From: Actinomycetota bacterium
GTDB taxonomy: Bacteria; Actinomycetota; Acidimicrobiia; Acidimicrobiales; AC-14
Direction: 5' to 3'
Assembly (NCBI GenBank): GCA_040754375.1
Contig: JBFMCT010000022.1
Coordinates: forward strand, 1-52,262
DNA: 52,262 bases
Numbering within the stretch: the stretch's first letter is position 1; the number at the start of each line of letters is the position of its first letter. The notes beneath the pieces were generated by a model that worked only from the letters and a program-made list of their open reading frames with translations, ran no database searches and was not told where the DNA came from. This document shows positions 48,852-52,050 of this stretch, in pieces. A program made the position numbers and the translations under genes.

Positions 48852-49154
48852 ATGAGCGGCCACATCTCCCGTGACGACGTGCTGCACGTGGCCCGCCTGG
48901 CCCGCCTGCCGCTCACCGACGACGAGGCCGACCTGTTCACGGGCCAGCTCGAAGCCGTACTGGAGCACGTCGCAGGCGTGGCCGCCCTCGACACCGCCGG
49001 GGTCGAGCCCACGGCCCACCCCCTGCCCCTGGAGAACGTGCTGCGGGCCGACGAAGTGGTGGCCGGTGTCGACCGCGACGAGGTGCTGGCCCAGGCCCCG
49101 TCGGCCGAGAGCGGCCGCTTCCGGGTGCCGCCGGTCCTGGGTGTGGAGCCCTGA
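48852..49154 (+). CDS. gatC: Asp-tRNA(Asn)/Glu-tRNA(Gln) amidotransferase subunit C
   Basis: GatC stabilises the GatA-GatB complex. The 100-residue protein has the family features [21 protein letters not shown], then [24 protein letters not shown] and the C-terminal [13 protein letters not shown]. Its stop overlaps a CTG codon that I take as the gatA start (CTGA). Confidence 0.93.
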
Positions 49155-50575
49155 CCGCCGCCGAAATCGCGGCCGATGTCCGCCGCGGCCGCCGCCGTGC
49201 CCGGGACGTGGTCGAGGAGCACCTGGCGGCCGTCGAAGCCCGCGAGGGGGACGTGCACGCCTTCAACCTCGTCCTGGCCGAGCGGGCCCGGGCCGAGGCC
49301 GACACCCTCGACGGGCGGGTGGCCGCCGGGGAGGACGTGGGGCCGCTGGCGGGCGTGCCCGTGGCCGTCAAGGACAACATCTGCACCCGGGGGGTGGCCA
49401 CCACCTGCTCGTCGCACGTGCTGGCCGGTTGGGAGCCGCCTTACGACGCCACCGTGGTCGCCCGCCTGCGCCGGGCCGGGGCCGTGGTGGTGGGCAAGAC
49501 CAACCTCGACGAGTTCGCCATGGGCTCGTCGACCGAGAACTCGGCCTTCGGGCCCACCCGCAACCCTCACGACCTGGCCCGGGTCCCCGGCGGGTCCAGC
49601 GGGGGCAGCGCGGCAGCCGTGGCCGCCGGGTTCGCCAGCGTGGCCCTGGGGTCGGACACCGGCGGCTCCATCCGCCAGCCCGCCTCGCTGTGCGGGGTCG
49701 TGGGCGTGAAGCCCACCTACGGCCTCGTCTCCCGCTACGGGCTGGTGGCCTACGCCTCCTCGCTCGACCAGATCGGGCCCATGGCCGCCACCGTGGCCGA
49801 CGCCGCCCTCGTCCTCGATGTGATCGCCGGCCACGACCCGGCCGACTCCACATCGGTGGCCCGGCCCTTCGCTGGCGTGGGCCACGCCGCCCGGTCAGAC
49901 GGGGCCGCAGTCGAGGGCCTGCGGGTGGGCATCGTCGACGAGCTCACGGCCGAGGCCAACCCAGACGTGGTGGCCCGGGTGGAGGCCGCAGCCCGGGCCC
50001 TGGAGGCGGCCGGGGCGAGCGTGGGCCGGGCGTCGGTCCCGGCCGTCGCCTACAGCCTGCCCGCCTACTACCTGATCGCCCCGGCCGAGGCGTCGTCCAA
50101 CCTGGCCCGCTACGACGGCGTCCGCTACGGCCTGCGGGCGGGCGGGCCCGACGTCGACGAGATGTTCTGCGCCACCCGGGCCGCGGGCTTCGGGCCCGAG
50201 GTCAAGCGCCGCATCATGCTGGGCACCTACGTGCTGTCGGCCGGCTACTACGACGCTTACTACGCCCAAGCCCAGCGGGTGCGAACCCTCGTCCTGCGGG
50301 CCTTCGAAGCTGCCTACGAGGACTTCGACGTGCTGCTGTCGCCCACGTCGCCCACGACCGCCTTCCCCCTGGGGGCCAAGGTGTCCGACCCGCTGGCCAT
50401 GTACATGATGGACGTGGCCACCATCGCCTCCAACCTGGCCGGGCACCCAGCCATGTCGGTGCCCTACGGCACCGGCGACGACGGGTTGCCCGTCGGCGTC
50501 CAGGTCCTGGCCCCGGCCCTGGGCGAAACGGTGATGTTCCGGGTGGCGGCTGCCCTCGAAGCGAGCCTGGCGTGA
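49151..50575 (+). CDS. gatA: Asp-tRNA(Asn)/Glu-tRNA(Gln) amidotransferase subunit A
   Basis: GatA hydrolyses glutamine and delivers ammonia to GatB. The 474-residue protein has the amidase signature with the Ser-cisSer-Lys triad Lys74, Ser149 and Ser173 ([29 protein letters not shown]); spacings of 75 and 24 equal those in known GatA. The conserved N-terminus [16 protein letters not shown] is encoded upstream of the first ordinary start (GTG 49208). It is reachable only from CTG 49151, which overlaps the gatC stop. Starting at 49208 would remove 19 conserved residues. Confidence 0.93.
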
Positions 50576-52050
50576 GCGGCCCGGCGGGGCCCGCTGGCCC
50601 GCCCCCGGGCTGGGAGACGGTGGTGGGCCTCGAGGTCCACTGCGAGCTGGCCACCGCCACCAAGCTGTTCTGCGGCTGCCGCAACGGCTTCGGGGAGGAG
50701 CCCAACACGCTGGTGTGCCCGGTGTGCCTGGGCCTGCCCGGTTCGCTGCCGGTGCTCAACCGCCAGGCCGTGGAGCTGGCCATGCGCATCGGGCTGGCCC
50801 TGGACTGCGAGGTGCGGCCCTCGGTCTTCCACCGCAAGAACTACTTCTATCCCGACATCCCCAAGAACTACCAGGTCAGCCAGTACGACAAGCCCATCAA
50901 CACCGGCGGCTCCCTCGACCTGCCCGACGGGTCGCGGGTGGGGATCGAGCGGGCCCACCTGGAGGAGGACACGGGCAAGACCACCCACGCGGGCGAGAGC
51001 GGGCGCATCCACGGCGCCACCTACGCCCTCGTCGACTACAACCGGGCAGGCGTGCCCCTGGTGGAGATCGTGAGCGCCCCCGACATCCGCTCGTCCGAGC
51101 AAGCCCGGGCCTACGTGAGCGAGCTGCGGGCCATCCTCGTGGCCGTGGGGGCGTCCGACGCCCGCATGGAGGAGGGGTCGATGCGGGTGGACGCCAACGT
51201 GTCGGTCCGCCCGGTGGGCAGCGACCGGTTGGGCACCCGGGCCGAGATCAAGAACCTCAACTCGGTGCGCTCGGTCGGTCGCGCCATCGACTACGAGGCT
51301 CGCCGCCAGGTGGCCCTGCTGGAAGCGGGCGGGACGGTCGTGCAAGAGACCCGCCACTGGGACGAGGACGAGGGCCGTACGTCCACGCTGCGCTCCAAGG
51401 AGGAGGCCGAGGATTACCGCTACTTCCCCGAGCCCGACCTCGTGCCCCTGGCACCCGGGGCCGGTTGGGTGGCCGACGTACGCGCCGCCTTGCCCGCCCT
51501 GCCGGCCGCCCGCCGGGCGGCGCTGGCCCACGCCGCCGGGGTCGGGCCCGCCGAGGCCGCCGGGCCGGCAGCCGGCTTGGTCGCTGGGGTGGTGGCCGCC
51601 GACCTCGACGAGCTCGTCCTCTACGCCCTCGACAACGGCGTGGAGGCCCGGCTGGCACTCGTGCGGGCGACCAACGAGGTGGCGGGCCGGGGCCTGGGCC
51701 GGGCCGACATCGTGGCCGAGGCCTTCGTGGCCACCCTGCGGCTGGAACAGGACGGGCGCCTAACGGCCACCCAGGCCAAGCAGGTGCTGGCCCAGGTCGT
51801 CACCGCCGGGGGCGACCCGGGGGCGGTCGCCCGCGAGCTGGGCTTCGAGGCCCTGGCCGAGGACACGCTGGCGGGGGCGGTCGACGCGGCCGTGGCCGCC
51901 CATCCCCAGGAGTGGGCCCGCTATGTGAACGGTGACGACAAGCTCACGGGGTTCTTCGTCGGCAAGGTGATGGCCGCCACCGCGGGGAAGGCCGACGGCA
52001 AGGCGGCCACCGCCCTGCTCCGCCAGCGCCGTTCGGGCTGGCACGCCTGA
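50572..52050 (+). CDS. gatB: Asp-tRNA(Asn)/Glu-tRNA(Gln) amidotransferase subunit B
   Basis: GatB binds and activates the mischarged tRNA for amidation. The 492-residue protein has [20 protein letters not shown], the Cys-rich zinc site (CGCR then CPVC), [19 protein letters not shown], the long [14 protein letters not shown] region and the C-terminal YqeY-like domain ending in [23 protein letters not shown] 50572 overlaps the gatA stop. It is the last gene of the operon and of the reliable part of the window. Confidence 0.95.

Follow-up and report, generated by a model that had tools for sequence, protein, structure and literature searches.

Where does translation of gatA begin when its frame holds no ATG, GTG or TTG at the place where relatives start? 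The question is posed by a locus in the window, by which we mean the whole stretch of DNA analysed, 52,262 nucleotides from a genome of the Acidimicrobiales. Three consecutive genes match the NCBIfam profiles of GatC, GatA and GatB, the three subunits of Asp/Glu-tRNA amidotransferase. Sequence order and profile matches together give gatC-gatA-gatB, the arrangement of a GatCAB operon. The features of the locus are as follows.

48852..49154, + strand: gatC, with an ATG start and a TGA stop at 49152-49154 (NCBIfam TIGR00135, 91.8 bits, cut-off 47.1).
49139..49143, + strand: GGGTG within gatC, the best Shine-Dalgarno-like pairing, 7 nt 5' of the CTG (duplex -6.9 kcal/mol).
49145..49148, + strand: GGAG, 2 nt 5' of the CTG in the sequence.
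49151..49153, + strand: CTG, the putative gatA start codon and the sole in-frame CTG from the upstream stop to 49208; relatives have GTG, ATG or TTG here or nearby.
49151..50575, + strand: gatA, 474 residues counted from the CTG, stop TGA at 50573-50575 (NCBIfam TIGR00132, 596.8 bits, equivalog cut-off 481.1).
49166..49168, + strand: ATC, the sole ATN-type near-cognate codon 5' of 49208, rejected as a start, which would lose A3.
49208..49210, + strand: GTG, the first in-frame standard start, read from relatives as an internal valine codon (residue 20).
50572..52050, + strand: gatB, with a GTG start in a GTGA overlap with the gatA stop (NCBIfam TIGR00133, 448.8 bits).

The gatA frame is -1 relative to gatC. 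The gatC stop and the gatA CTG share CTGA at 49151-49154, the C of the CTG falling on the wobble position of the final gatC codon. The nearest stop upstream in the gatA frame lies 93 codons 5' of the CTG, with 92 open codons between, and from that stop to GTG 49208 there are one CTG (49151), one ATC (49166) and no ATG, GTG or TTG. The frame is therefore as an earlier note, made from the DNA letters, described it. GTG 49208 is the first standard codon and encodes residue 20 when translation begins at the CTG; a start there costs 19 residues, and the CTG in its CTGA overlap is the only initiator that keeps the N-terminus, no other ATG, GTG, TTG or CTG standing upstream of 49208. The same note took catalytic residue spacing as support for the longer protein. 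The amidase motifs are present (in CTG numbering K74 in VKDN, GGSSGGS from 147 and DTGGSIR from 169) and we take K74, S149/S150 and S173 to be catalytic. The distances between these residues are independent of the start, only that to the N-terminus varies, which leaves the spacing argument weak. No promoter- or terminator-like site was found between 48700 and 49300, and RNA structure across the gatA start is unremarkable (z 0.33).

For comparison we used 110 gatA loci, 30 from a genome search and 80 from named genome contigs, 38 of these 80 records being Acidimicrobi- taxa. Leaving out the window itself (L001) and a locus with the gene start off the contig (L072) gave 108 usable relatives; the 60 genomes searched included none of the same genus. 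A standard start falls within codons -12 to +2 of the CTG column in 106 of the 108, a range where the window has none, and all 108 have a standard codon in the looser range of -30 to +5. The earlier note had suggested looking in alignments for ATG or GTG in place of this CTG, and a standard start does stand exactly in the column in 20 of the relatives (17 GTG, two ATG and one TTG). Such placement, set against a window that lacks a standard start, is on the sequences compared more than chance.

In 67 of the 108 relatives the gatA start and the stop of a GatC-like frame overlap in NTGA (51 GTGA, 11 ATGA and five TTGA) and 13 of these checked overlaps stand exactly at the CTG column. A standard codon followed by A, reading NTGA, occurs in 90, the TGA closing a GatC-like frame only in the 67; no overlap with such a frame was found in 41. 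The four-nucleotide gatC/gatA overlap is, from these alignments, common and not universal. Confidence in a CTG start is unaffected by the lower overlap count because it is carried by the columns in which relatives start and by the conservation of the N-terminus. The 92 open codons 5' of the CTG would also accommodate a GatC-GatA fusion made by frameshifting at the end of gatC. We consider this extremely improbable, as in those 67 relatives a standard gatA start lies within the NTGA that closes the GatC-like frame, and by eye the gatC/gatA junction has no recognisable slippery heptamer.

Could gatA instead start at GTG 49208 and encode a protein genuinely 19 residues shorter? This is the first standard codon that the frame offers, and GTG occupies the same column in 41 of the 108 relatives. 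The earlier note had raised the prospect of relatives starting at that internal codon; all 41 have a standard codon upstream as well (codons -30 to +5), which indicates that the GTG in their sequences is a valine codon. The residues at stake are also conserved, as had been claimed. Among the 71 relatives that are at least 65% identical the mean identity is 0.53 over columns 2-19 and 0.58 over columns 20-40, compared with 0.25-0.26 in the two other frames, and individual residues are widely kept (A3 in 63/71, A7 in 68/71, V10 in 61/71, G13 in 64/71 and A17 in 70/71). Solved GatA chains that reach the N-terminus are 4wj3 (query 1-466), 3kfu (3-472) and 3h0l (5-467). Others align later, 2df4 from query 14 and both 2gi3 and 3al0 from 61, so the GatA N-terminus is not equally conserved everywhere. 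Finally, initiation at 49208 would put 53 nt between gatC and gatA, in contrast to the 67 of 108 relatives whose gatA overlaps a GatC-like frame by 4 nt. The shorter protein is quite improbable.

The end of gatC carries the sequences that might recruit a ribosome. GGGTG is a weak match to the 16S tail, the sequence of which was entered by hand, and its -6.9 kcal/mol is slightly weaker than, and within one sd of, the mean of -8.3 (sd 2.6) in a differently drawn set of 67 relatives, those of at least 65% identity with any NTGA start, GatC overlap not being required. The spacing of GGAG to the CTG is probably too short for it to act alone. The positions bear on a further candidate, ATC 49166, five codons 3' of the CTG. 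An ATC start gains some plausibility from otsA and infC of the same genome, where ATC codons, and no standard start, precede the conserved region. The Shine-Dalgarno-like pairing, however, lies 22 nt 5' of the ATC and 7 nt 5' of the CTG, 106 of the 108 relatives have a standard start in codons -12 to +2, and A3, kept in 63 of 71 sequences, would be lost. We regard initiation at ATC as very improbable.

CTG 49151 is most likely the gatA start, translated by initiator fMet-tRNA, and we put the probability of this reading at about 0.88. A ribosome finishing gatC would halt with the CTG overlapping its stop codon, GGGTG or GGAG near the gatC end could hold the 16S tail, and ribosomes or their small subunits would restart on the CTG in the -1 frame, a coupling that we infer. 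How might a CTG have come to occupy this position? In the window gatC ends CTG GGT GTG GAG CCC TGA; in one relative (L015) it ends CTG GGC GAG GCC CCG TGA and the gatA start is the GTG of GTGA. The likeliest origin of the CTG is a single G-to-C change in an ancestral GTGA overlap, if we have the direction right. That change would be silent in gatC (CCG to CCC, both proline), so selection would have seen it only through gatA initiation.

Is there precedent for such a start? Proteomics of Deinococcus deserti by Baudet in 2010 reportedly addressed non-canonical starts. The gatA case resembles the rare CUG-initiated genes of bacteria in that a standard NTG is replaced in place by CTG, with a Shine-Dalgarno-like sequence and a conserved N-terminus. 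It differs in that those genes are known from start-codon reconstructions and N-terminal proteomics whereas the gatA CTG is read from sequence, and in that at least two further genes with CTG starts, proB and sufD, are inferred in the same genome. For 36 genome groups the reported switches to CUG comprise two from AUG, one from GUG and one from UUG, and one in 5,080 ancestral GUG starts turned CUG (PMC5622118). An unbiased mycobacterial selection in the presence of a Shine-Dalgarno sequence is reported to give ATG, GTG and TTG at 20.5-28.7% and ATT at 9.8%, with no enrichment of CTG, at 0.03% (PMC4633059). Of the results that speak against ready initiation at CTG in related bacteria this is the chief one, and together with the 1/5,080 conversion from GUG it suggests, on published yardsticks, that CTG starts are rare.

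Huber et al. 2019 (PMC6728339) describe coupled translation at four-nucleotide overlaps, where the gene upstream carries a Shine-Dalgarno-like motif. The gatC/gatA junction shares with this ATGA type of termination-reinitiation the 4-nt overlap of stop and start, the encoding of subunits of one complex and the motif in the upstream gene; it differs in its CTGA overlap. The main text of PMC6728339, searched for such words, contains AUGA but none of CTGA, GTGA, CUGA and GUGA. With respect to decoding, fMet-tRNA pairs with CUG in E. coli 70S initiation complexes and the first-position pairing is described as weak (PMC11497404). The initiator tRNA in those complexes had G30-C40 swapped, whereas the gene found in this genome has the normal pairs. 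We considered a relaxed initiator tRNA as the cause of CTG use and reject it for the gene found (L131 1465-1541), which retains its three G-C pairs; the search was by anticodon-loop pattern, which copies with another loop would escape. With these pairs normal, nothing found accounts for the tolerance of CTG. The gatA start would be a further instance of a known phenomenon, rare CTG initiation.

The role of the enzyme in this organism should also be considered. The earlier note called gatA essential, which does not hold as stated, since the genome also encodes GlnRS (648.7 bits) and AsnRS (614 bits), both above cut-off. GlnRS is above cut-off in 16 of 60 genomes, this one included. The AsnB matches fall below cut-off (best 38.2 bits, against 267.1) and AsnA gave no match in a genome that is 97.46% complete. 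GatCAB may be a route to asparagine, made on tRNA, and it is possible but unproven that gatA is essential through asparagine supply.

Is gatA alone in this genome? Other genes were sought in sampled stretches of the genome to which the window belongs (G000, the window being its contig C22) and of relatives. In proB (L129 16460-17548, + strand) the only candidate is again a CTG in a CTGA overlap, with no ATG, GTG or TTG before the conserved region; the first standard codon is 30 codons in, beyond the VVKIG motif. The CTG column of proB holds ATG or GTG in 25 of 29 relatives and the other four have a standard start 3-19 codons upstream. Genes without a standard start before the conserved region also include otsA (L112 8122-9546, - strand) and infC (L133, around 1477-1534), in both of which ATC codons are found there. 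Rare start codons in infC are a known kind of exception; here any of the ATC codons before the conserved region may serve. In other genomes mreB (G001, L228 11595-12605, - strand) and hypF (G004, L178 11307-13766, + strand) lack a standard start before the conserved region and have CTG in place. The cases that look similar in G004 are hypF, a nitroreductase and an APH-like gene, and in G001 mreB.

A codon-usage screen of the sampled stretches looked for genes with a complete 5' side and a coding signal of at least 7 bits before the first standard start. It returned 37 of 1,043 genes in G000 (1,252,262 bases), 14 of 277 in G004, 10 of 299 in G001 and 10 of 325 in G011; many of these rows resemble wrong-frame noise and the majority stand as candidates. 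Family searches were made with ten proteins from the G000 rows (45 rows at 5 bits), ten from the G004 rows (23 at 5 bits) and ten mixed. Cases backed by homology in the G000 sample are gatA, proB, otsA (ATC) and sufD, at least four of 1,043. G000 is not clearly richer in such starts than its relatives. We also considered whether CTG starts concentrate at CTGA overlaps, which is unsupported. The gatA and proB codons are in CTGA, the sufD CTG is off any gene overlap, the TGA there closing merely a 31-codon frame, and a YacP-like gene (L185 10444, CTGA) is ambiguous because a GTG lies 21 codons upstream.

The sufD CTG, common to several families, is a more interesting lead than gatA. In G000 the codon is at 5446 of L190 (- strand) and the first standard codon is 31 codons in. 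The gene was compared at 15 loci (L264-L278), G000 included, from 15 of the 30 genomes with a match. The start column holds CTG in nine, ATG in two and another codon in four. The nine CTG genomes span six families (f1, f10, f11, f14, f15 and f22), four of the nine belonging to f1. At L264, L272 and L278 there is no in-frame standard codon upstream of the CTG; at the other six the nearest is 13 to 58 codons away, and the frame alone permits a start there. In an ungapped comparison of all 15 loci identity per codon position is approximately 0.3 in the 60 nt 5' of the column and 0.65/0.70/0.50 just after it, a step which places the onset of homology at the CTG. In eight of the nine, Shine-Dalgarno-like pairing ends 5-7 nt 5' of the CTG, and in L276 it ends 2 nt 5' of it. 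Were this only a leucine column, CTG in all nine would have a probability of 0.0012, calculated from each gene's own leucine codons and ignoring kinship. The family models miss the N-terminus (TIGR01981 aligns from 172 of the frame and PRK10948 from 57), so the support for this start comes from relatives. It looks as though the CTG start of sufD is kept across the order. Among the titles and abstract openings searched in an open-access library, none describes sufD as starting with CTG and none describes CTG initiation in the order.

The sufD leaders show a separate feature. By eye, L265, L269 and L271-L276 carry an inverted repeat resembling GGGGCC...GGCCCC about 20-50 bases 5' of the start, often with a TTTCGCGA-like sequence after it and a TAGGAT-like sequence before. 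This is possibly an operator, an attenuator or a 5' hairpin; alifold gave no consensus fold for the leaders.

These genes bear on a sequencing or assembly error, in which the true gatA codon would be GTG, or ATG or TTG, at the same place. There is a single assembly, in 105 contigs and 97.46% complete, and each of the 108 usable relatives has a standard codon at or near the column, both of which fit an error. Yet proB of the same genome likewise lacks a standard start and has CTG in CTGA, and sufD has CTG in the same column in nine of 15 genomes; independent mistakes would have to strike the first base of start codons repeatedly. We consider an error unlikely. Initiation of gatA at CTG 49151 looks instead like one of several uses of CTG as an accepted minor start in the order, since proB and sufD also carry it.

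Many gene callers would cut such a gene short. A finder limited to ATG, GTG and TTG would shorten gatA by 19 residues, proB by 30 and sufD by 31, and in proB would remove the lysine (residue 6) of the VVKIG motif. We suggest, tentatively and as a possibility that we hold at somewhat below even odds, that CTG is a kept, probably selected start for particular genes of the order, apparently Acidimicrobiales, and not a rare accident. The sufD CTG would then be shared, with lineages adding their own (here gatA and proB, in a relative mreB). Retention of CTG starts throughout the order would mean the same systematic annotation error in many of its genomes, and the order would lend itself to work on how CUG is accepted by ribosomes. 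Should selection for CTG prove correct, the ribosomes of the order would tolerate CTG better than mycobacterial ones, and for some proteins CTG may serve to hold the rate deliberately low.
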